Assembly (NCBI RefSeq): GCF_006442545.2
Contig: NZ_CP083952.1
Location: forward strand, 5,867,501 to 5,931,500
Origin: Mesorhizobium sp. B2-1-8
GTDB taxonomy: Bacteria > Pseudomonadota > Alphaproteobacteria > Rhizobiales > Rhizobiaceae
Direction of reading: 5' to 3'
DNA: 64,000 nt
Position numbers and translations under genes: made by a program. Shown here in pieces: positions 40,804-61,915 of this stretch. The notes beneath the pieces were generated by a model. The model worked only from the letters and a program-made list of their open reading frames with translations. It searched no databases and had not been told where the DNA came from. Within the stretch, counting starts at the first letter, position 1. Every line of letters begins with the position of its first letter.

Positions 40804-42219
40804 TCAGGTGATTGTATACACCGCGATCTCCCGCTCAATGCCGCGCAGCGAGACCTCGTGAGGCACGGGCGTCAGCGCGTTCCTGCGCAACAGATCGGCG
40901 GTGAGATTGTCGTCGACCACCGCACGGGTGGCGAAGATTGCCTGTGGGTTGGCCAGGTTCTGGACCCGTGATGCAATGTTGACCGTCTGGCCAAAATAGT
41001 CCTGCCGCTCGTTCATGGACACTGCGATGCAAGGGCCGGCATGGACTCCGATCTTGAGCAGCAGATCCTCGCGCCCGCTTTTTTCATTGAGCGCACGCAT
41101 GGCCTCGCGCATCCTGAGGGCCGCGGCAATCGCACGATCAGGCGTCGCGAAGGTCGCCATCACCGCATCACCGATCGTCTTCACCACCGCGCCCGCCTCC
41201 GCCGCGACAATCTCGTGCAGCACCTGGAAATGCTCGCGCACGAGATCGAAGGCTGAAAGATCGCCCACCCGCTCGTAAAGCTCGGTCGATCCGCGCAGGT
41301 CGGTGAACAGGAAGGTCAGGCTGGTGATCTTCAGCCGCTGGTTGATGTCGAGCGTGTCTGTGCGATAGAGATCGCGGAACGTCTGGTTGGTTAGCAGGCG
41401 CTTGGCGGTCAGGAAGGGCCGGCGCTTGCCCAGGAAATCATGCAATGCGTGGCCGGCGATGAAGACCGTCGGCAGCACGCGGGTGTCGGTCCTGTTTTCC
41501 AGCGAAATGCGCAAAGGGCCTGGTTGCATCTCCAACGTCTGGTTCTGGACATGGTCGCGGTCGAAAACCAATGAGAGGCTTCGGCGCTCCTTTGTTGGTT
41601 CGCCCTTAGCGTCGATGAACTGCGCTGAATGCGTGACCGGCTCGAAGACGATGACGAATTCAGATGGAAGCTGTATGGGCAGAACCGCCTTTTCACCGGG
41701 CGCAAGCTCGATATCCTCCAGCGAGAACGCTTCAATCTTCTCCGCGAAATCCTCTTCCGGCAGATCGGCGCCGGACGCCCAGTAGATCTGGCGGAAGTAT
41801 TCTATCAACGGCAGTTCGTGCGGATTGTGGGCGGCAATCCTGCGTATGCGGGGACTGACGGTGAATGTCACCTCGACCATCTCGTCGAGGGTCGGCGAAT
41901 AGCCCTGGGAGCACAGCGCGCAGGTGTATTCGTCCTTCTGCATTGTTTTCAGCGTGGCGTTGGTGTCGAGCACGCCGCCGCAGCCGGGGCACAGAACATT
42001 CCAGGAGATGTCGAAGATGCCCACCCGCGCCGCATGGAGAAAGGCGCTGATGGTGCGTTCCTCGTCGAGGCCATTCTTGCTGGCGAAGGCCAGCGCATTG
42101 ATGCGGCAAAGTTCGTGGTCCTTGCCCTCGGCGATGGTTCGCCGGATCGCGTCGATTGCCTGCGGATCGACATCGGTCGATTGCCGCAGAAGCGAGAACA
42201 GATCCTGAGCTTCGGTCAT
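40804..42219 (-). CDS. Adenylate cyclase with DUF5939 and zinc-knuckle N-terminus
   Basis: A 471-residue soluble cyclase. The N-terminal DUF5939 region (about 1-280) contains two Cys pairs, VLCPGCGGVLD and YTCALCSQGY, that can bind zinc. The C-terminal class III domain (about 300-465) has the metal Asp residues in FLFTDLRGSTELYERVGD and VKTIGDAVMATF, and the final block FGQTVNIASRVQNLA. ATG at 42219 has CCGGAG upstream. A second member of the same family, lacking the first Cys pair, is encoded at 60476 on the other strand. The ligand of the N-terminal region is unknown. Confidence 0.88.
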   Translation of the reverse strand: MTEAQDLFSLLRQSTDVDPQAIDAIRRTIAEGKDHELCRINALAFASKNGLDEERTISAFLHAARVGIFDISWNVLCPGCGGVLDTNATLKTMQKDEYTCALCSQGYSPTLDEMVEVTFTVSPRIRRIAAHNPHELPLIEYFRQIYWASGADLPEEDFAEKIEAFSLEDIELAPGEKAVLPIQLPSEFVIVFEPVTHSAQFIDAKGEPTKERRSLSLVFDRDHVQNQTLEMQPGPLRISLENRTDTRVLPTVFIAGHALHDFLGKRRPFLTAKRLLTNQTFRDLYRTDTLDINQRLKITSLTFLFTDLRGSTELYERVGDLSAFDLVREHFQVLHEIVAAEAGAVVKTIGDAVMATFATPDRAIAAALRMREAMRALNEKSGREDLLLKIGVHAGPCIAVSMNERQDYFGQTVNIASRVQNLANPQAIFATRAVVDDNLTADLLRRNALTPVPHEVSLRGIEREIAVYTIT

Positions 42220-42395
42220 CGTGCAGGCTCCGGAAAATGCGCCTCCCAGGCGTGTTCGCCGGACCGGTCTTCGGTCCGCGCACACCATCTTACGTCGAAA
42301 GGGATCAAACGGCCATTCGAATGGATAGATCTGGTGACAGCTCAATTTGAATTCGGCGGATTTTCACCGGCCGCAAGCGGCACTATGATGGGTAC

Positions 42396-51380: not shown

Positions 51381-52451
51381 TCAGGCCGGGAGCCGCCACA
51401 TTCGCACACGACCGGTACCACGCAATTCCGTTTCCTCGAGTGGGTCGCAAGCAAAATTTGGTCCAAGCATTTGGCGAGTTGCATCCGAAATACGGATTTC
51501 ATCGGGCTCCGCGGACGTTTGAATACGCGAGGCGAGATTAACGGTGTCGCCCCACAGGTCATAGGCGAACCGCCTCTTGCCTATGACGCCCGCGACGATT
51601 GGGCCTGAGTGAATTCCAATTCTGAGTGTCAGCGGTTCTCCCGCGAAGCGTTCGCGCTTAACCGCCTTGCGCAGCTCAAGTGCATAGCGCGCGAGGGCCT
51701 TTGCATGATCGGATCGCGCGGTGGGCAGGCCAGCGACCACCATCACACAATCGCCGATTGTCTTGATCTTTTCGCAGCCGTATCGTTCCGAGAGCCGATC
51801 CGCCGCCTTGAAGAAGTAATTTAAAATAGCGAGCGTCGTCACGGCTCCGACGCTCCGCGCTCGTTCCGTAAAACCGACTATGTCGGCAAAAAGCACACTC
51901 ACTTCTGCGTGGTTGTCAGCAATTTTTTTGTGCGCTTTTAACCGCTCCGCGATCGACGCCGGAAGAATGTTGAGGAGCAGGGTTTCGGCGCGCTGGTATT
52001 CACGCGCCAATCCCTCCTGGCTCTTCCTCAACGCCTCGTTCGTCGATTGTAATTTCTCGTTGAGTTGACGCTCCCTCTCTTGCAGGAGTGTCATTTCATA
52101 AGCCTTTTGTTGAAGCCGCTGCCTATTGTCGCGTTCGGCAGTGGCGTCAAGAAAGAGCAGCCACACGCAGGCATTGTCAGCAAAAAAATGAAGGTCCGCG
52201 ACACGCCCGCCGGGCAGCTCGACCATCGCAATGTGAAACGGAAGCTCCGGGCAAGGCAGCAAACCTTCCATGAATTCAAGCTGCTCGGCAACAGGCTCGC
52301 CAATGCGAAGCGACGAGAGCCCGTAGTGCTCAACATTACCGCCCTTAGCAGCTATGCAAAGCTGGGCGTCGATTTTCAGATATGCGACAGAGTTGCCATT
52401 GTAGAAGAAATTGAAAATCCAACTTTCAACTTCTTTTGGCAATCCATGCAT
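51381..52451 (-). CDS. Adenylate cyclase with PAS-like sensor and coiled coil
   Basis: A 356-residue protein, the last gene of the GTPase operon. Residues 1-110 look PAS- or H-NOX-associated-like (YLKIDAQLCIAAKGGNVEHY), residues about 112-155 form a signalling coiled coil rich in Gln, Glu and Arg, and residues 160-355 are a class III cyclase. The junction has LLNILPASIAERLKAHKK, as in receptor-type cyclases. Catalytic residues are present: FADIVGFTERAR, EKIKTIGDCVMVVAG with an adenine-specifying Lys, and LWGDTVNLASRIQ. It starts 3 nt after the small GTPase gene stop, so GTPase state may control cAMP synthesis. Confidence 0.87.
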   Translation of the reverse strand: MHGLPKEVESWIFNFFYNGNSVAYLKIDAQLCIAAKGGNVEHYGLSSLRIGEPVAEQLEFMEGLLPCPELPFHIAMVELPGGRVADLHFFADNACVWLLFLDATAERDNRQRLQQKAYEMTLLQERERQLNEKLQSTNEALRKSQEGLAREYQRAETLLLNILPASIAERLKAHKKIADNHAEVSVLFADIVGFTERARSVGAVTTLAILNYFFKAADRLSERYGCEKIKTIGDCVMVVAGLPTARSDHAKALARYALELRKAVKRERFAGEPLTLRIGIHSGPIVAGVIGKRRFAYDLWGDTVNLASRIQTSAEPDEIRISDATRQMLGPNFACDPLEETELRGTGRVRMWRLPA

Positions 52452-52454
52452 GGT

Positions 52455-52949
52455 CTATTTGGCTACCATCGAAGCAAGTTGACGAAACGCATCATCAACA
52501 TGTTCACCCGAAAGCGCACTTGTTAGATAGATTTGCCATCCACGTTGCCTCAGTTCGTCAATCTCACTATCCGATACTGCCCACCGATCGGCCAGATCAG
52601 ATTTGTTGAACAGCAATACAAACGGCATGGCGCCGAATTCGGCCTCGACCCGTTCCCGTAGCGTGAGCGCCACGGCAAGAGTGGCAGGGCGCGTTCCATC
52701 GACGACAAGCACAAGCCCGGTTGCACCTCGCACATAGCTGACGCGGAATGAGCCGATATCGTCTTCACCGGCTAAATCCCACAAAATCAGATCCACGGTT
52801 TTGTCCGGGAGCGCGACACTCTTCTTGTCGATTTTCACTCCCACCGTGGTCAAGTAGGTTTCTGAAAAGATGCTCTGCACATACCTGCGAACCAGACTCG
52901 TCTTTCCGACAGAGAACCCGCCCAGCATGCATATCTTTCTTTGCAACAT
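52455..52949 (-). CDS. Ras/Rab-like small GTPase
   Basis: A 164-residue Ras-superfamily GTPase. G1 is GGFSVGKTS (10-18), switch I has YLTTVGVKI with the Thr, G3 is WDLAGED (57-63), G4 is NKSD (115-118) and G5 is TSAL (143-146). The Ras catalytic Gln after DxAG is Glu here (E62), as in several prokaryotic small GTPases that depend on an external activator. No lipidation motif. It lies between the OmpA-repeat gene (11-nt gap) and the cyclase gene (3-nt gap). It is probably the switch of the four-gene system. Confidence 0.9.
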   Translation of the reverse strand: MLQRKICMLGGFSVGKTSLVRRYVQSIFSETYLTTVGVKIDKKSVALPDKTVDLILWDLAGEDDIGSFRVSYVRGATGLVLVVDGTRPATLAVALTLRERVEAEFGAMPFVLLFNKSDLADRWAVSDSEIDELRQRGWQIYLTSALSGEHVDDAFRQLASMVAK

Positions 52950-52960
52950 CTTGGGCCCCG

Positions 52961-55900
52961 CTAGTCCAGGTTTACCGAAATCGAGACCCGGCGATTGGTG
53001 GAGCTCCCGGTTTGACTATTTTCTGGCACCAGCGGCTCAAAAGTGCCCGCGCCCCGAACCAGCAGCAGTTCCGGAGCGACTCCGCGCTTGTTGAGAAGCG
53101 CGCGAACTGTCTCGGCGCGGGCTGCACTGATCGACGCGTTGGCCGTCTCACGGCCCGTGGTGTCCGAATGCCCGGTCAACATGAACCGTGCTGTTACGCC
53201 TGACTTGCGGGCATCTTGGGCGAATTCCTTTATTTGATCCGCCAACCTGTCGAGAACCGGCAACTGCTCCGGTCCCGGCACAACTTTGCCGGAAGAGAAG
53301 AAAATATCGGTCGCCTGGATGGCTTCTCTCAAATAATTAAGGTCTGCAAGGTTCAGCTCACGCAGCTGCGAGACATCCAGAACCACTCCGTCCGCCGAAA
53401 GTTGTTCGGCGGCGGCCTGCGCCCGGTTGATCCAGCCGGCAGAAGCCTCACCCACGACAAGGATGCGACCCTGGACGATCGAAAGCTGAACCGATTTCGG
53501 CGGGGACAGCGACGCCGTCAGCCGCTTCACCACGAACTTCGGATCAAGGCTCTGATAGAATTGCCACTGCGAATGAACGCGGGCAGGATCAATCTGCGTT
53601 CCGGACAGCAGAGCTTGCGGGTCGGCGGCAAGCGGGTCTCTCAGGCCGGAAATGTAGAATTGTCCGCCGCTCGTCCGTTGTTGGGCGACGATGATTCCCG
53701 ATTGGGCCTCAAGTCGCGACACATAATACTGCCAGTGCTCCGCCTCGCGTGCTTCGGGGCTCACATCACGAACCTTGGAGATGTCGAATTCCGGTCCGCC
53801 TGCCGAAAGCTGTCGGGCCGCTACGCGCGCCCGATCTATCCAGGTGTCGGGAGCCTCACCCTCGGCAACGATGCGACCCTCGACGATCGAAAGCCGAACC
53901 GATTTCAGCGGATACAGCAACGCCGTCAGCCGCTTCAACACGAACTCGGGCTCAAGGCTCTGATAGAATTGCCACTGCGAATGAACCCGGGCGGGATCGA
54001 CCTGCGTTCCCGACAACAGCGACTGCGGGTCGGCGCCAAGCGGGTCTCTCATGCCGGAAATGTAGAATTGGCCGTCGCGTATCTTTTGTTCGGCAACGAT
54101 GATGCCCGGCTGGGTCTTCAGTTGCGACACATAGGCCTGCCAGCGCTCCGCCTCGCGTTCTTCGGGGTCACGGACCCTGGAAATATCGAATACCGGCCCG
54201 CCTGCTGAAAGCTGCCGTGCGGCGGCCTGCGCCTGGTCGATCCACGTGGCAGCAGCCTCACCTTCGGCAACGATGTGATCATTGACGATTGAAAGCCGCA
54301 CTGAATTCGGCGGGGACAGCGACGCCGTCAGCCGCTTCACCACGAACTTCGGATCAAGGCTCTGATAGGATTGCCACTGCGAATGGACCCTGCCGGGATC
54401 GACCTGCGTTCCGGACAGCAGAGCTTGCGGGTCGGCGGCAAGCGGGTCTCTCAGGCCGGAAATGTAGAATTGGCCATCTCGTATCTTTTGTTCGGCAACG
54501 ATGATGCCCGGCTGGGTCCCCAGTCGCGACACATAGGCTTGCCAGTGCTCTGCCGCGCGTGCTTGGGGGCTCACATCACGAACCTTGGAGATGTCGAATT
54601 CCGGTCCGCCTGCCGAAAGCTGTCGGGCCGCTGCGCGCGCCCGATCTATCCAGGTGTCGGGAGCCTCACCCTCGGCAACGATGCGATCCCCTACGATCGA
54701 AAGTCGTACTGAGTCCGGAGGAGCCAGCGACGCCGTCAGGCGCTTCAACACGAACTCCGGTTCAAGGCTCTGATAAAAATGCCACTGCGAATGAACCCGG
54801 GCTGGATCGACCTGCGTTCCAGACAACAGCGACTGCGGGTCGGCGGCAAGCGGGTCTCTGAGGCCGGCAATATAAAATTGGCCGCCGCGTATCTCTTGTT
54901 CGGCAACGATGATGCCCGGCTGGGTCTCCAGTCGCGACACGTAGGCCTGCCATCGCTGCCCGGATTGCCAGGAAAGAAAGAACCAACCGCCTGCCAGACT
55001 CAAAAGCAGCAGAGCCAGAGCCACCACCAGCCACGGAAAACCCTCGTTTGACTCCTCCTGCTTCAGCTCGACGCAGGTCCGCAACTGCGCCTCTATGCCG
55101 GCCAACTGCGAACTGTCCCCGTCAAACTCCACTAAAGCCTGCGAGCATTCCTCATGGATACGAAGCAATACATCGCGAACTATTTCATGCAGTTCTTCTG
55201 GCGGATTTCCTCGGATCACCGAAACCAGGGTCGCAAACGGTCCAACTTCCGACCAGAGACGAAGGTCGCCAAAACGAATTGTGTCCAGGCCGCTCTGCTC
55301 TTTCTCGTTAAATGAATCTTTCACAAAATCTTGAATTGCACTAAGCATCGAAGAAATGAGTTGAGGATCTTCGCTCGTCGCATTGTCCGCAGTTACATGC
55401 GCTATCAAAAGACCCGAATTGCGATTAATGAGAAAGACGTGCTCGACACGATAGATAAGAGAATGCTTCAGTACAACTTCAGAGAAGCTAGCACCAGTCC
55501 TCCAGGATTCGAGTCTCCACTTGAGCCCATGCCAGGTAAATATATGTCTTAAAGTTTCATTCAGCGACTGAAAGGTCTGGTCGATCTTTTCCCCGATCGA
55601 CTTGCGAATTGCTGGCAGAAACACCGGGTATAATATATCCGTCAGCGTACGCGGGCTCTTCTGGATCGACCGTTGCACAGCCCTTTCGACAGCTGGCGCA
55701 AGGGCCTCGCCGAGTTGCGCATGAGGCGCTCGTGCGGCCGCACTGGGAAGCACGTCGCCCACTGCTGCCGCAAGCTGCTCCGGTTCGTCGAGCAGATGCG
55801 TAACTCGTGAAAGCTCCGAAATTTCGCGGCTGACCAGCAACTGGCGCAGCGTTTCCATGCGAGGATCGGCGGTTGGAACTCCGCCGAGACGCGCACGGTA

Positions 55901-56020
55901 GTCCGGATCAACGTTCCGGGCAATTTCGATCAAAAGACGGGCCAGAGCCTCGCGATCAATCTCTGTATCGTTCGAGGCTGTTTTTTTTGGAAGGCTGATT
56001 GGGTCGACGGTCGACGTCAA
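52961..56020 (-). CDS. Membrane-anchored repeat protein with OmpA-like C-terminal domain
   Basis: A 1019-residue protein. Residues 1-325 are cytoplasmic; 190-245 (VEHVFLINRNSGLLIAHV and a following helix) resemble a roadblock/longin-type fold that partners small GTPases. One membrane helix lies at 329-350 (FPWLVVALALLLLSLAGGWF). Four tandem repeats follow: 357-492, 493-626, 627-762 and 763-902, each with WQxYVSxLxxQxGIIVA and LSGTQxDPxRVHSQW. The OmpA peptidoglycan-binding domain is at 903-1019, with TGHSDTTGRETANASISAAR and STNRRVSI. It would link the cytoplasmic switch to the cell wall. No signal peptide precedes the long cytoplasmic part. Confidence 0.85.
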   Translation of the reverse strand: MTSTVDPISLPKKTASNDTEIDREALARLLIEIARNVDPDYRARLGGVPTADPRMETLRQLLVSREISELSRVTHLLDEPEQLAAAVGDVLPSAAARAPHAQLGEALAPAVERAVQRSIQKSPRTLTDILYPVFLPAIRKSIGEKIDQTFQSLNETLRHIFTWHGLKWRLESWRTGASFSEVVLKHSLIYRVEHVFLINRNSGLLIAHVTADNATSEDPQLISSMLSAIQDFVKDSFNEKEQSGLDTIRFGDLRLWSEVGPFATLVSVIRGNPPEELHEIVRDVLLRIHEECSQALVEFDGDSSQLAGIEAQLRTCVELKQEESNEGFPWLVVALALLLLSLAGGWFFLSWQSGQRWQAYVSRLETQPGIIVAEQEIRGGQFYIAGLRDPLAADPQSLLSGTQVDPARVHSQWHFYQSLEPEFVLKRLTASLAPPDSVRLSIVGDRIVAEGEAPDTWIDRARAAARQLSAGGPEFDISKVRDVSPQARAAEHWQAYVSRLGTQPGIIVAEQKIRDGQFYISGLRDPLAADPQALLSGTQVDPGRVHSQWQSYQSLDPKFVVKRLTASLSPPNSVRLSIVNDHIVAEGEAAATWIDQAQAAARQLSAGGPVFDISRVRDPEEREAERWQAYVSQLKTQPGIIVAEQKIRDGQFYISGMRDPLGADPQSLLSGTQVDPARVHSQWQFYQSLEPEFVLKRLTALLYPLKSVRLSIVEGRIVAEGEAPDTWIDRARVAARQLSAGGPEFDISKVRDVSPEAREAEHWQYYVSRLEAQSGIIVAQQRTSGGQFYISGLRDPLAADPQALLSGTQIDPARVHSQWQFYQSLDPKFVVKRLTASLSPPKSVQLSIVQGRILVVGEASAGWINRAQAAAEQLSADGVVLDVSQLRELNLADLNYLREAIQATDIFFSSGKVVPGPEQLPVLDRLADQIKEFAQDARKSGVTARFMLTGHSDTTGRETANASISAARAETVRALLNKRGVAPELLLVRGAGTFEPLVPENSQTGSSTNRRVSISVNLD
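53315..54952 (-). repeat. Four tandem 134-140 codon repeats inside the OmpA-repeat gene
   Basis: Unit boundaries: 54952-54545, 54544-54143, 54142-53735 and 53734-53315. The units are near-identical in long stretches at the nucleotide level (for example CGGACAGCAGAGCTTGCGGG appears in two), so they arose by recent duplication and copy number may vary among strains. The second unit is 2 codons shorter; the last one grades into the OmpA domain. Confidence 0.85.
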
Positions 56021-56027
56021 GTTCCGA

Positions 56028-56693
56028 TCAACTCACTTTCCAGCTACGCTCCGAGTTGGTCTTGCTGCCGACGGGATCCTGATTCAGACATTTTGCAACC
56101 TCGACAAACAGGCCAGCCAAAAGATTTCGGTCGGTCTTGACATTGCCGAGATCGGAAAACATTTTCTCCATCAGCATCTGAATGCCTTCATTCTTTTGCT
56201 TGATTTCCTCACGCAGCAAATGATCGTTTCGATTTATCCGGTCCGCAATTTCGCGCTCAAGCTCGTTCAATTGATCCGACAACGCGCGCACCTGCTTTTC
56301 AAGCGCTTGATTTTGCTCGCGAAGATTCCGGTCAATCTCCTTGTCGGCGTCGGCTCGCGCGTCTTTTTCGTTCCGCAATTGCGCCGCAAGCGAGTCGACC
56401 TGCTTTTTCGCATTTGACTCGTACATTTCAAGATTGCGCTTGGCCTCGGATTCGACATCCTTGAAGCGCTGCAAGACCCGTTCTTCAAGCTTGGAAAAGC
56501 GGCGGTCATAGTCCTGCATCTGGTTGCCGAACAGCAGATCACGTATCTTGTCGACACCTACAGCGTCGCCGGGGGTCCCGCTCTCGCGAGCCTGGCCCGC
56601 CATGAAGGCCAGCCCGTTTGCTTCTGCATTACTTGTTAGATTTCCGTCCGCTTTATTTGCCGGAGAAGCGGTACTCGAAGATTCCTTGGCCAT
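56028..56693 (-). CDS. Coiled-coil protein of the GTPase operon
   Basis: A 221-residue, highly charged protein. After a disordered Ser/Ala/Asn-rich start, residues about 65-175 form long heptad-type coiled coil (KLEERVLQRFKDVESEAKRN, later EQNQALEKQVRALSDQLNEL). The C-terminal part (about 180-215) has DRNLLAGLFVEVAKCLNQ. No signal peptide or membrane helix. ATG at 56693 is preferred over 56708 because AAGGG lies about 8 nt upstream. It is promoter-proximal, 7 nt before the OmpA-repeat gene. It may be a scaffold or GTPase effector; I know no characterised homologue. Confidence 0.75.
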   Translation of the reverse strand: MAKESSSTASPANKADGNLTSNAEANGLAFMAGQARESGTPGDAVGVDKIRDLLFGNQMQDYDRRFSKLEERVLQRFKDVESEAKRNLEMYESNAKKQVDSLAAQLRNEKDARADADKEIDRNLREQNQALEKQVRALSDQLNELEREIADRINRNDHLLREEIKQKNEGIQMLMEKMFSDLGNVKTDRNLLAGLFVEVAKCLNQDPVGSKTNSERSWKVS

Positions 56694-56763
56694 CCCTATA
56701 CCCTTCATTTGAACAGCAGCCACCGCACTAATTTAGCAACTTGTAAAGATGTCAGCAAAATAC

Positions 56764-57322: not shown

Positions 57323-60235
57323 GTGGCGCATAATCCATTGGTTTCAATCGTAGTTCCTGCGCACAACGCGGAGGTAACGCTGACGCGCGCACTCGATTGC
57401 CTTCTCGATCAGGAAATCGCGGATTGGGAGGCGATCATCGTCGACGACGCCTCCACGGACCGCACCCCCGCGCTCATCGCCGCTTATGTGGAACAAGATG
57501 CCCGATTTCGGACGTTGAGTTCTTGCGCGAATAGCCCCGCGGGGGCGCGCAATATAGGGGTTTCGATGGCGCGTGGCCGCTGGCTGATGTTCCTGGACGC
57601 CGACGATTGGGTGGATGCCAGCTTCCTTGCGACAATGCTGGCCACACTGAAAACCGCTCCCGATGCGGTGGCCGCCTATTGCGGTTCGCGGCGCGTGATG
57701 CCCGATGGAGCACTCACGCCGTCGAGCATCGACCCCGAGATCGCGATCCAGCCCTTCGAAACATTCGCCCGCCGATGTGCCATCGCCACTCACGCGCTGC
57801 TGGTCGACCGGGAAACAATCGTCGAGTTGGGCGGTTTCGATGTGTCGCTGCGCACCTGCGAGGACTGGGATTTGTGGCAGCGCGTCGCACGTCAAAGCAA
57901 ACCTTGGGTGATGGTCGACGAGCCGCTCGCTTTTTATCGGGCAAGCTCCAACTCGCTCACCCGCAATTCGACGCAGATGCTGGCAGACGCGGAAATCGTC
58001 ATCGCCCGCGGCTTTTCCGCCGACCCAAGGGTCAAGCACCCAGCTTCGGCGCATGCCAATGGGGCGACCTCGGCGGACGGCCGCACCGCTTCCGAGGCAC
58101 TGGCGTGGTTCGCGCTGTGGATCGCGGCAGCTGATTGCGGCCGCGGCGGGGGCTCGATCGACCCGAAATCCGTGCGCGCGCTCCCGGCAGGGCGCAAATG
58201 GGCGCGTGAGATCGCCAAGGTGGCCTTCGATGGCCTTATGGTAGGAAGCCTATCGGTGCCAGCGCATTTGGCTGCCCGATGGAACAGGTTTGGCGGCGCC
58301 CTCACCGAGTTGATCATCGAACTCGGCAAGGTCTGGGGCGATCCGGTCGCGGGTCGTCGCGTCCAGTATCATCTCGAGCAAATGCTTCTCGATGCCGATG
58401 ATCTTGCCGCACCTCGCAGGCTGGCGCGGACACTCGGAATTCGTGTCGACGCTCGAAATCCAACCTCGACCGAGCTTCCGGAAGGAATCGATCAAATCTA
58501 TGCCTACCTGATGATGGATGGCCAGATCGAAGCTGTCGTGCAGTTCGGCGTACTCGGGAAAGTGACAAGGCGTCACTGGATTGAACTGATCCTGAATTTC
58601 GCACCGCAAAAGGACGACGGTGCCGACACGTCAAACACGCTTGCAGCCGAGGCACTGTCGACCACAGCGGAACGCCGGCCTGATCCGGACAGCCACTTCG
58701 GCAGACTCGCGCGATTGGTCTCGGAAGCGCGGGAACTGGTTCGGTCGAGCGCCGAAGCTACGCAGCCTATTCCGGCGCCGCGCCGTGCACCGGCCTCGGA
58801 TGGCCACGACAAGGATCGTACTTTGTTCTGGAATCGCTATTTCGCGATAGAGGATCCCTGGAATTACAGCTCGCCCTACGAGCAGGAAAAATATGAGCGC
58901 CAGCTCGAGATTCTGCCGGCCGGTCCCATCGGACGAGCGCTTGAGCTGGCCTGCGCGGAGGGCCATTTCACGCGACAACTGGCGCCGCTGGTGGGCCATT
59001 TGACCGCAACCGACATTTCCGCCGTAGCCATCGAACGGGCGCGCGCGCGCTGCTCGGACCAGCCGAATGTCGAGTTCGGCGTCCTGGATTTTTTTGCGGA
59101 CACACTGCCCGGTGAGATGGATCTGATCGTCTGTTCGGAAGTGCTCTACTACCTGGATGATCTCGCCGGGTTGCGTCGCATCGCCAAGAAATTCGTTGAG
59201 GCATTGGCGCCTGGCGGCAGTTTCATCAACGCACACGCATTCGTGCTACGCGACAATGTTGAAAGGACGGGCTTCGACTGGAACACATTCGGTGCACAAA
59301 CGATCTCGCAAACCCTGGCAGAGACCGAAGGACTCGTTCTTGCGCAATCGATCCAGACCGAACTCTATCGCATAGATCGCTTCCGCCGCCTGTCACCGGA
59401 CCACATGGCGACGGAGCCGGTGATCGATCATGTGCCGGTCCGCGCACCCCTCGGAATCGGGGTCGCGCGAAATATCGTCTGGGGCGGGGCGCGGGTCTTG
59501 CGCCGCGACGTCGCGCGCAGCGAGCGGCGGCAACGCATCCCTGTCCTCATGTATCACAGCGTCGCCGATGAAGGTCCGGCCGCGCTCGCCCGTTTCCGGC
59601 TCACGCCCGCCGCATTCGCGAGCCAGATGGCATGGCTGCGCGCAAACGGCTTTCACGCGATCATGTCCGAGCAGCTGGAATGGTCCGTCGCCAACCGTCA
59701 GCCTTTCGCTGGCCGCCCGGTGCTCATCACCTTCGATGACGGCTTTCAGAACTTTGCCGACCATGCCTGGCCGATTCTGCGTGCGCACGACCTGACCGCG
59801 GAAGTGTTCCTGGTGACGGACCTGGTGGGTGAAAGTGCAAAGTGGGACGCCGTCAGCGGTCCGCCGGCGCCGCTTATGGACGCCGCGACGGTGCGACGTC
59901 TCGCCGCCGAAGGTGCGTTCTTCGGAAGCCATCTGGCGACGCATCGCGCTATCGATGGTCTTTCGAGCTCTGACCTGGCGGCCGAACTCCTGCGCTCTCG
60001 GATGTTCATCGAACGGTGGACCGGCCGGCCAATCTCGGCGTTCGCGGCACCCTTCTCCGTCACCGACCGACGGCTCGGCGGGCTGGCCAAGGAGTCCGGC
60101 TATCGGATCGGCTTCGGCGGCAGACACGGGCCGGCGGACCTTGATAGCGATCCCATCGACCTTCCACGCATCGAGATTCGTGGGGATCGTTCGCTCGATG
60201 ACTTTGTTGCCACCGTCGAGGCCGTGCTCAATTGA
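57323..60235 (+). CDS. GT2 glycosyltransferase, NodS-like methyltransferase and NodB-like deacetylase fusion
   Basis: A 970-residue protein. Residues 1-230: GT2 domain with SIVVPAHNAEVTLTRALDCL, IIVDDASTDRTPAL and the DxD-like MFLDADDWVDA, then CEDWDLWQRVA. Residues about 240-490: linker with helical segments. Residues about 502-690: SAM-methyltransferase with FWNRYFAIEDPWNYSSPYEQ and RALELACAEGHFTRQLAP, closest in pattern to NodS. Residues about 737-965: polysaccharide deacetylase with PVLMYHSVADEG, LITFDDGFQNFADH and GSHLATHRAID as the metal site. The start is GTG at 57323. All three catalytic domains look intact. It could build a modified N-acetylated glycan in one chain; the product is unknown. 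Confidence 0.87.
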   Translation: MAHNPLVSIVVPAHNAEVTLTRALDCLLDQEIADWEAIIVDDASTDRTPALIAAYVEQDARFRTLSSCANSPAGARNIGVSMARGRWLMFLDADDWVDASFLATMLATLKTAPDAVAAYCGSRRVMPDGALTPSSIDPEIAIQPFETFARRCAIATHALLVDRETIVELGGFDVSLRTCEDWDLWQRVARQSKPWVMVDEPLAFYRASSNSLTRNSTQMLADAEIVIARGFSADPRVKHPASAHANGATSADGRTASEALAWFALWIAAADCGRGGGSIDPKSVRALPAGRKWAREIAKVAFDGLMVGSLSVPAHLAARWNRFGGALTELIIELGKVWGDPVAGRRVQYHLEQMLLDADDLAAPRRLARTLGIRVDARNPTSTELPEGIDQIYAYLMMDGQIEAVVQFGVLGKVTRRHWIELILNFAPQKDDGADTSNTLAAEALSTTAERRPDPDSHFGRLARLVSEARELVRSSAEATQPIPAPRRAPASDGHDKDRTLFWNRYFAIEDPWNYSSPYEQEKYERQLEILPAGPIGRALELACAEGHFTRQLAPLVGHLTATDISAVAIERARARCSDQPNVEFGVLDFFADTLPGEMDLIVCSEVLYYLDDLAGLRRIAKKFVEALAPGGSFINAHAFVLRDNVERTGFDWNTFGAQTISQTLAETEGLVLAQSIQTELYRIDRFRRLSPDHMATEPVIDHVPVRAPLGIGVARNIVWGGARVLRRDVARSERRQRIPVLMYHSVADEGPAALARFRLTPAAFASQMAWLRANGFHAIMSEQLEWSVANRQPFAGRPVLITFDDGFQNFADHAWPILRAHDLTAEVFLVTDLVGESAKWDAVSGPPAPLMDAATVRRLAAEGAFFGSHLATHRAIDGLSSSDLAAELLRSRMFIERWTGRPISAFAAPFSVTDRRLGGLAKESGYRIGFGGRHGPADLDSDPIDLPRIEIRGDRSLDDFVATVEAVLN

Positions 60236-60475: not shown

Positions 60476-61915
60476 GTGGTCAACGATCGTCTTCTCGAAC
60501 GCAAGATGACCGAGATCGAGCAAGCGCGAGCATGGAGCCCGCGCGTCATCTCAAAATTCGAAACGCTTGTCAGGAGCGGCGACGACCTTGCGCTGTATCG
60601 GGTCAATCCGCTGGCCTTCGCCCGCGACCGCGCAATCGCCGAGCCTGAAGCAATCGACCTCTTCCTTCACGCGGCTCGCTGCGGCCTGTTCGATATGAGC
60701 TGGGACGTGCTCTGTCCCCAGTCCGGGATGGTGCTCGACAGTTTCGGCGCCCTGCGCACGCTGCAGACCCATTACGTCTGCGGCCTGTGCGACGTATCGG
60801 GCGATACCGACCTCGACGACTTCATCGAGGTCTCCTTCTCTGTATCGCCCCATTTGCGGCGGCTTCCGTTCCACGAGCCCGAGACGCTCTCTGTCGAGGA
60901 TTTTCATTGGAAGCTACGCTTTGGCAATGACGGACGGCTGCCCGGGCAGGACGTACGCTTTCTGGACCTTTTGCGAGGCTTGGTGCGGGGCATGACGTTC
61001 CTGCCTCCGGGCACCACAACAATGCTGCGCGCCGACCTCGATGCCGGATCCCTGTCGGGCGTGAACGTGCAGACACAGGCTGCGTTCGCTGTACCTATAT
61101 CAGGGGATCCGGTGTCGGCACCGACACTTCTTAAGATCAATTATGACGGCAAGCGTTTCTTGCCGGCGTTGCCGGTCGTGCCGCCCGGTCCGGTTGTCAT
61201 TGAGGTTGCGAATACCGGGCCCGGTCGTGGCGCGTTGCTTCTCATCAACTGGCCGCCCGAGCTTGTCGCGTTGAAGACCAAACCGGCGCTCGATTTCGAT
61301 CCATATGTTTCCGGCGGGGCTCTGCTTGCGCGGCAAACCTTCCGCCAGCTCTTCCGTTCCGAGCGTGTCGACGAGAAGGAGGGGCTCGGCATCCGGCAGA
61401 TCACCTTCCTGTTTACGGACCTCAAGGGTTCCACCGCCATGTATGAGCGCCTGGGCGATCTCAACGCCTATGCCCTCGTCCGCGAGCATTTCGCGCTTCT
61501 CAATGCTGCGGTCCACCAGCATTCCGGCGCCGTTGTAAAGACGATCGGAGATGCGGTGATGGCAGTATTCTCGCGGCCACCGGATGCGATTTCGGCCGCT
61601 CTTCACATCTTTGAAGAAATCGATCGCTTCAATGGCGACAATGTCAGGCCGGGTATTATCCTAAAGATGGGTGCCCACTGCGGTCCATCGATCGCCGTCA
61701 CGCTCAACGAGAACCTCGACTACTTCGGCCAGACCGTTAATGTCGCCGCACGCGTGCAGTCACTGGCGGAAGCCGGGCAGATTTGCATCTCCGAAGCGCT
61801 CTATTCCGCGCCAGGCGTGAGCGACCTGCTTGCTGGCCTAGGCATCGTCGCGTTTGATGCGCCTCTTCGAGGTGTAGAGGGCGATGCGACTGTCTATCGC
61901 ATTGTGCGAGGATAG
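60476..61915 (+). CDS. Adenylate cyclase with DUF5939 N-terminus, second copy
   Basis: A 479-residue paralogue of the cyclase at 40804. The N-terminal part aligns (LFLHAARCGLFDMSWDVLCP) but the first Cys pair is lost (CPQSG instead of CPGCG), while CGLCDVS keeps the second. The class III domain (about 305-475) is complete: FLFTDLKGSTAMYERLGD, VKTIGDAVMAVFS, and FGQTVNVAARVQSLA. The GTG at 60476 with GGTGGAG upstream is used; ATG at 60506 is an alternative. It stands alone, 240 nt after the fusion gene. Zinc binding in the N-terminal region is probably weakened. Confidence 0.86.
   Translation: MVNDRLLERKMTEIEQARAWSPRVISKFETLVRSGDDLALYRVNPLAFARDRAIAEPEAIDLFLHAARCGLFDMSWDVLCPQSGMVLDSFGALRTLQTHYVCGLCDVSGDTDLDDFIEVSFSVSPHLRRLPFHEPETLSVEDFHWKLRFGNDGRLPGQDVRFLDLLRGLVRGMTFLPPGTTTMLRADLDAGSLSGVNVQTQAAFAVPISGDPVSAPTLLKINYDGKRFLPALPVVPPGPVVIEVANTGPGRGALLLINWPPELVALKTKPALDFDPYVSGGALLARQTFRQLFRSERVDEKEGLGIRQITFLFTDLKGSTAMYERLGDLNAYALVREHFALLNAAVHQHSGAVVKTIGDAVMAVFSRPPDAISAALHIFEEIDRFNGDNVRPGIILKMGAHCGPSIAVTLNENLDYFGQTVNVAARVQSLAEAGQICISEALYSAPGVSDLLAGLGIVAFDAPLRGVEGDATVYRIVRG

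Follow-up and report, generated by a model that had tools for sequence, protein, structure and literature searches.

Gene layout of the locus

The window, which is the whole analysed stretch of 64,000 nucleotides (nt) from Mesorhizobium sp. B2-1-8 (contig NZ_CP083952.1, positions 5,867,501 to 5,931,500), contains a four-gene operon that, judged from its sequence, belongs to the Group 1 Rup signalling cassettes and has an adenylate cyclase as its output. All four genes lie on the minus strand and encode, in transcription order, a coiled-coil protein, a membrane protein, a small GTPase, and a cyclase; the intergenic gaps are 7, 11, and 3 nt. An earlier model-made annotation of the same DNA (the original prediction) had placed four genes spaced by 3 to 11 nt at this locus and had named the GTPase, the OmpA end of the membrane protein, and the cyclase; the layout agrees, and the three parts match the respective Pfam families. 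The features are as follows (window coordinates; lengths in amino acids, aa).

56028..56693, minus strand: cytoplasmic coiled-coil protein; ATG start, 221 aa, N-terminal motif IRDLLFG
52961..56020, minus strand: membrane protein; TTG start, 1019 aa
55058..55453, minus strand: predicted longin domain of the membrane protein, residues 190-321, from the predicted structure
53327..54952, minus strand: four tandem periplasmic units of the membrane protein, residues 357-898, 134-136 aa each
52991..53254, minus strand: OmpA peptidoglycan-binding domain of the membrane protein, residues 923-1010; Pfam OmpA, E value 5e-11
52455..52949, minus strand: Rup (Ras superfamily) GTPase, 164 aa; Pfam Ras, 2.4e-28; G3 motif DLAGE
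51381..52451, minus strand: output enzyme, class III cyclase, 356 aa; Pfam Guanylate_cyc, 6.7e-50

The coiled-coil assignment comes from composition and from weak matches to families of such proteins. The reading frame of this gene is also open from a GTG at 56723, upstream of the ATG, and a start there would give a protein of 231 aa. The coiled-coil protein (IRDLLFG) and the membrane protein (LRQLLV, encoded at about 55830-55850) have an N-terminal motif in common, which a profile comparison aligns with an E value of 9.5e-4 and a probability of 22% and which is possibly a common docking element.

The membrane protein consists of approximately 330 cytoplasmic residues, one hydrophobic segment (peak at residues 331-349), four periplasmic units (residues 357-492, 493-626, 627-762, and 763-898), and the OmpA end. 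The four units are mutually 77 to 91% identical at the DNA level, so that the array looks recent, and its unit number varies. Among 57 membrane open reading frames (ORFs) from Mesorhizobium, a set that includes duplicates as well as cut and split ORFs, there are four units in 26, three in 23, two in 4, one in 3, and five in 1. Of the 43 ORFs from outside this genus, 33 have a single unit of about 135 residues, 2 have two units (one of these is partial), and 8 lack the unit. A Pfam HTH_91 winged-helix match (residues 619-649, 30.7 bits against a cut-off of 27, covering 30 of the 77 profile positions) falls at the junction of periplasmic units 2 and 3, an unexpected place for such a domain, outside the cytoplasm.

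Assignment to the Group 1 Rup systems

The original prediction knew of no described system with this composition. It is, in fact, the composition that Wuichet and Sogaard-Andersen (2014; PMC4316618) described for their Group 1 Rup systems. In the accessible text of that paper, such a system comprises a Rup GTPase that lacks the Gln of G3, a coiled-coil protein, a further protein in which an unknown domain is combined with a transmembrane (TM) segment and an OmpA domain, and a signalling output with an invariant Gln in its N-terminal region; this Gln is considered a possible replacement for the missing one. The same text names a Group 1 Rup in Mesorhizobium loti (mll3243) and states that, as of 2014, Rup proteins were without experimental characterisation. 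A literature search judged on titles and abstract openings, with subscription journals largely outside its reach, found no later experimental study of a Rup GTPase among the papers listed.

Judged against that description, the GTPase has the properties of a Rup: it is small (164 aa, below 240), it matches the Ras family, and its genome contains no Robl_LC7 match at an E value of 0.001. In its G3 motif, DLAGE, Glu62 occupies the position of Ras Gln61, a substitution already pointed out in the original prediction; among 82 nonredundant relatives this column is Glu in 67 and Gln in none. The neighbouring genes encode the coiled-coil protein and the protein with the unknown domain-TM-OmpA order, and the output carries an N-terminal Gln (Gln115), a candidate, from the alignment, for the invariant Gln of PMC4316618. 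The outputs given there as typical are GGDEF/EAL proteins or histidine kinases (the paper says "typically"), and here a class III cyclase takes their place. The words adenylate, cAMP, and longin are all absent from the main text of that paper.

Conservation of the gene set

Conservation was followed in three sets of loci, with neighbour genes scored by profiles built from the cassette itself. The genus set holds 21 close orthologous loci from Mesorhizobium and overlaps, through several identical contigs, with the named-loci set, which is the best 80 of at least 551 relatives (among at least 588 matched stretches). The phylum sample covers 398 genomes, 53 of them with a match, and 56 matches in total; the contexts of 51 were read there, and those of the window's own genome, G012, G021, G029, and G037 separately. 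Loci L216-L218 of this sample duplicate loci of the other sets. Three weak non-Rup matches (L213-L215; E values of about 1e-13 to 1e-14), which have no partner genes and two of which sit inside proteins of 773 to 793 aa, were excluded from the phylum counts.

All four genes are found in 20 of the 21 genus loci, the remaining one (L035) being interrupted by a contig end; one locus counted as complete, L047, has its membrane gene broken into two ORFs. The coiled-coil gene, the membrane gene, and the output module occur together in 64 of the 80 named loci, that is, in 36 of the 42 Mesorhizobium-like ones, the remaining 6 being interrupted by a contig end, and in 28 of the other 38. In the phylum sample, 39 loci have 3.5 kb or more of upstream sequence, and 38 of them contain the coiled-coil gene as well as the membrane gene (38 of 40 if L213-L215 are included). 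The original prediction had named conserved co-occurrence of the four genes as its check, and they do co-occur in other genomes. The cassette is real and widely conserved, more than chance would give.

Output enzymes and their shared N-terminal module

The cyclase consists of a PAS-like N-terminal module, a long helix, and a class III domain, with no evident TM helix. In the structural model, the PAS-like domain, so named from the order of its elements, spans approximately residues 23-102 and the helix residues 104-161. The residues characteristic of class III adenylate-type cyclases are present (D190, D234, K230, D298, N305, and R309); these presumably comprise the two metal-binding Asp, the adenine-selecting Lys and Asp, and the transition-state Asn and Arg. 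Accordingly typed, the domain is predicted to be an adenylate cyclase. A weak HNOBA match in the same protein is below the cut-off of that family.

Residues 1-160 align with the N-termini of phosphatase outputs and with free-standing cyanobacterial proteins. At the junction of module and helix, the column of Gln115, read by eye, holds Gln in 29 of the 30 outputs compared, which cover all five kinds, and differs only in L051; the alignment is less sure for the kinase, HD, and GGDEF outputs, whose N-termini have diverged. Another Gln, Gln57 in an EQLEF motif, is common without being invariant. Pfam searches assign the outputs as follows.

Class III cyclase: the window, L130, L137, L155, L161, L168, L175
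SpoIIE phosphatase: L050, L132, L133, L136, L138, L160
Histidine-kinase type: L051, L135, L148, L153, L158, L159, L163, L165, L166, L171, L182, L201
HD_5 (HD-GYP-like): L141, L156, L174
GGDEF-EAL: L206, L207, L209, L210

The labels of L050, L132, L160, and L201 were assigned by hand and agree with Pfam; the remaining loci were labelled by similarity to the Pfam-scanned outputs. In four cyanobacterial loci (L153, L163, L165, and L166), the module is encoded by a separate gene, and a kinase-type protein that has an N-terminal region of its own follows, which makes two module-type proteins per operon; at L167, the module is likewise separate, with no recognised enzyme. Of the 46 phylum loci that have 1.2 kb or more of downstream sequence, 33 have a cyclase output, and 30 of these 33 come from a single family (f59).

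In a tree of 82 GTPase rows, from which L058, L212-L215, near-copies, and short rows were omitted, the five output labels require at least 8 changes, the minimum possible being 4, against a mean of 33 for shuffled labels, and are thus strongly clustered. On its own, the cyclase label requires 5 changes, of which well-supported branches force at least 2. The Mesorhizobium clade (support 100) is nested in a group of 27 rows (support 99) in which 17 outputs are phosphatases and 10 are cyclases; the supports are SH-aLRT (Shimodaira-Hasegawa-like approximate likelihood ratio test) values only, and the tree carries a warning of long branches that meet. One Mesorhizobium genome (G027) has, besides the cyclase cassette, a second one whose output is a phosphatase (L050). 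The output of the latter lies in two overlapping ORFs, module and SpoIIE phosphatase (L050:7496-8741), which may reflect a frameshift in the gene or a faulty assembly.

Origin and genomic surroundings

A close copy of the GTPase is found in 22 of 37 genus genomes, the window's own included, and in none of the other 15. Among the matches listed, it is 90 to 95% identical to Mesorhizobium-named proteins, 65 to 69% to a few alphaproteobacterial proteins from metagenome-assembled genomes (L130-L132), and 52 to 60% to proteins of Variovorax, cyanobacteria, acidobacteria, and myxobacteria; with the second type of Rup present in its genus and order it shares only about 35% identity. The GC content at third codon positions (GC3) of the operon, 0.57 to 0.64, lies below the values of 19 out of 21 neighbour ORFs at 27.7-64 kb (0.68 to 0.82; the other two, 0.65 and 0.59), in a comparison where the neighbours were chosen partly by GC3. 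The low GC3, the identity pattern, and the patchy presence in the genus fit a horizontal gain of the operon. A locus named Rhizobium mongolense subsp. loessense (L117) has a 91% identical GTPase, which reflects either horizontal transfer or a misnamed record.

The 28.6 kb from 33184 to 61807 of the window hold 6 of the 8 class III cyclase domains of the genome, and two DUF5939 cyclases are encoded at 40807-42345 and 60476-61912. This cluster was considered for a role in the operon, and the idea was dropped: the operon is distant from it in G009, G011, and G021, and G003 has the cluster without the operon. A similar cluster does lie beside the operon in G027, and single other cyclases are found 10 to 25 kb from it in G011 and G021. 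The ORF at 57323-60235 fuses glycosyltransferase 2, NodS-like methyltransferase, and polysaccharide deacetylase domains.

Predicted longin domain and proposed mechanism

Residues 190-321 of the membrane protein are predicted from a structural model to adopt a longin fold. The order of elements in the model, b-b-a-b-b-b-a-a, matches that of solved longins, and longins are top-ranked among the structural matches to this region. The gene set itself was outlined in 2014; the longin fold in the membrane partner, a fold most familiar from proteins that pair with eukaryotic Rab GTPases, is newly predicted here. The original prediction of a possible roadblock-type domain came close, the longin fold being related to the roadblock. 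A literature search, with subscription journals largely outside its reach, found no paper that combines longin, bacterial, OmpA, GTPase, and roadblock. Two weak matches of the region are taken as chance: Peptidase_M16_C, its best Pfam match (E value 0.0066, in 5 of 34 family members), is under the cut-off, and the G-alpha-12/13 matches (13 sequences from the profile search of solved structures) extend over about 40 residues at E values of 0.1 or worse.

With moderate confidence, we propose a chain that leads from a wall-anchored protein through a longin platform, Rup, and the PAS-like module to a cyclase with a cyclic AMP (cAMP) output. The membrane protein would be fixed to the inner membrane by its one helix and to peptidoglycan by its OmpA end, with the tandem units bridging the periplasm. 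Its cytoplasmic longin domain would serve as the docking platform, and most likely the guanine nucleotide exchange factor (GEF), for the Rup GTPase, and the state of the wall would alter this docking. Rup-GTP would then bind the PAS-like module, and the long helix would pass the signal on to set cAMP synthesis. Because Rup is without a Gln of its own, the near-invariant Gln115 may finish GTP hydrolysis in trans. The coiled-coil protein, which has the short motif in common with the membrane protein, is probably the scaffold of the complex. The chain from wall to GTPase to cAMP in the original prediction comes close to the hypothesis put forward in the accessible text of PMC4316618. What the sequence itself shows is the gene set, its conservation, the order of the domains, the lack of the Rup Gln, and the catalytic residues, and the longin fold is a prediction; all contacts, the signalling direction, any GEF or GAP activity, the part played by Gln115, and the sensing of the wall are what we infer.

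Several observations weigh against this reading. Loci L174 and L156 combine the GTPase with an HD output and have no coiled-coil or membrane gene nearby, L167 is without a recognised coiled-coil gene, and the distant Mesorhizobium copies L052-L055 have no recognised output gene downstream. (In the last four loci, GTPase identity is about 35%, and the coiled-coil and membrane genes are present.) In sequence comparisons, none of 34 family members gives a Pfam longin or roadblock match at E values up to 0.1, neither family is among the 25 Pfam families listed at E values up to 1, and hhalign gives probabilities of 1 to 2% against nine bacterial roadblock stretches. Roadblock/LC7 is disfavoured as the fold by these searches and by longins ranking first by structure; with no profile match, the case for the longin is a structural one, and the region is for this reason described as having a predicted longin fold and not as an established member of the family. 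The model, built from 34 sequences, has a mean pLDDT (predicted local distance difference test) of 71 and a pTM (predicted template modelling score) of 0.52, with residues 211-250 at 65 to 75. According to the accessible text of PMC10933270, longin and roadblock are members of a wider profilin/PAS-like fold, and the SNARE longins are not GTPase regulators.

Of the alternatives, a different division of labour is possible though unlikely: the longin domain would be a scaffold or part of a GTPase-activating protein (GAP), as MglB is for MglA, with exchange elsewhere, and the signal might run from the cytoplasm to the wall, or the GTPase might be the true output, as posited for the actinobacterial conservons. 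Foldseek also returns MglB for the longin region (3t12 and 3t1r; 22 to 25% identity, E values of 3.5e-4 to 4e-3), and the accessible text of PMC4316618 likens Group 1 Rup systems to the conservon and ties the output Gln to the missing catalytic one. However, MglB is not among the 50 VIA structural matches listed, although it may rank lower, and the outputs are catalytic signalling enzymes (cyclase, phosphatase, kinase, HD, and GGDEF-EAL), which makes them the natural end of a chain.

It seems rather improbable that Rup and the wall protein act as a place-marker, holding the output enzyme at a site such as a pole or septum, with GTP cycling setting its position and not its activity. MglA and its GAP define a polarity axis (accessible text of PMC2907295), and the OmpA end with its repeat spacer would fasten the protein to the wall, but the long helix between module and cyclase is, in the model, of the signal-carrying kind found in sensor cyclases, which suggests control of activity. 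Similarly improbable is a generic alpha/beta sensor fold that binds no GTPase, in genes co-inherited for another reason; the lack of sequence matches to longin or roadblock families speaks for it.

If the longin domain binds Rup, as the proposed chain has it, this would bear on the origin of the eukaryotic Rab-longin machinery. In the accessible texts, an archaeal origin of the roadblock/longin families is thought likely (PMC10933270) and longins are derived from MglB-type roadblocks (PMC3521125). We tentatively suggest, at somewhat lower confidence than the chain itself, that the cassette holds a bacterial counterpart of the Rab-longin pair acting as an envelope sensor, in which case longins need not stem from MglB-type roadblocks or from the archaeal line. 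A predicted longin and a common effector region (the PAS-like module with Gln115) turn a gene list into a testable chain with a cAMP read-out. The kind of cassette is known, described though uncharacterised; new here is a predicted longin partner for a cassette with an adenylate cyclase output.

Comparison with known systems

With the other Group 1 Rup systems, as far as the accessible text of PMC4316618 describes them, the operon shares the Rup without the G3 Gln, the coiled-coil gene, the unknown domain-TM-OmpA gene, and an output with a conserved N-terminal Gln. It differs in its adenylate cyclase output and in having four wall-spanning units, compared to one in 33 of the 43 non-Mesorhizobium relatives. 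Like the actinobacterial conservon (CvnA-D), it places a small GTPase within a conserved four-gene signalling operon; in contrast, the conservon combines an MglA-type GTPase with a homologue of MglB and a histidine kinase in the membrane (PMC4316618, accessible text). A further parallel is the MglA-MglB pair, where a small bacterial GTPase has a partner from the roadblock/longin superfold, as is predicted here. Here, however, the GTPase belongs to another family, the genome has no Robl_LC7 match at the E value of 0.001, and the partner is a wall-anchored membrane protein whose model has the longin order of elements.

The eukaryotic longin-type Rab GEFs (Mon1-Ccz1, Fuzzy-Inturned, and TRAPP) likewise use the longin fold in partners of Rab GTPases, whereas here a single longin is predicted in a bacterial envelope protein with no detectable sequence relation to them. 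Sensor class III cyclases and soluble guanylate cyclase have the same succession of PAS-like domain, long helix, and class III domain, and the weak HNOBA match points the same way. Unlike in those enzymes, the N-terminal module here belongs to the Rup cassette and recurs both attached to SpoIIE phosphatases and encoded by a gene of its own.

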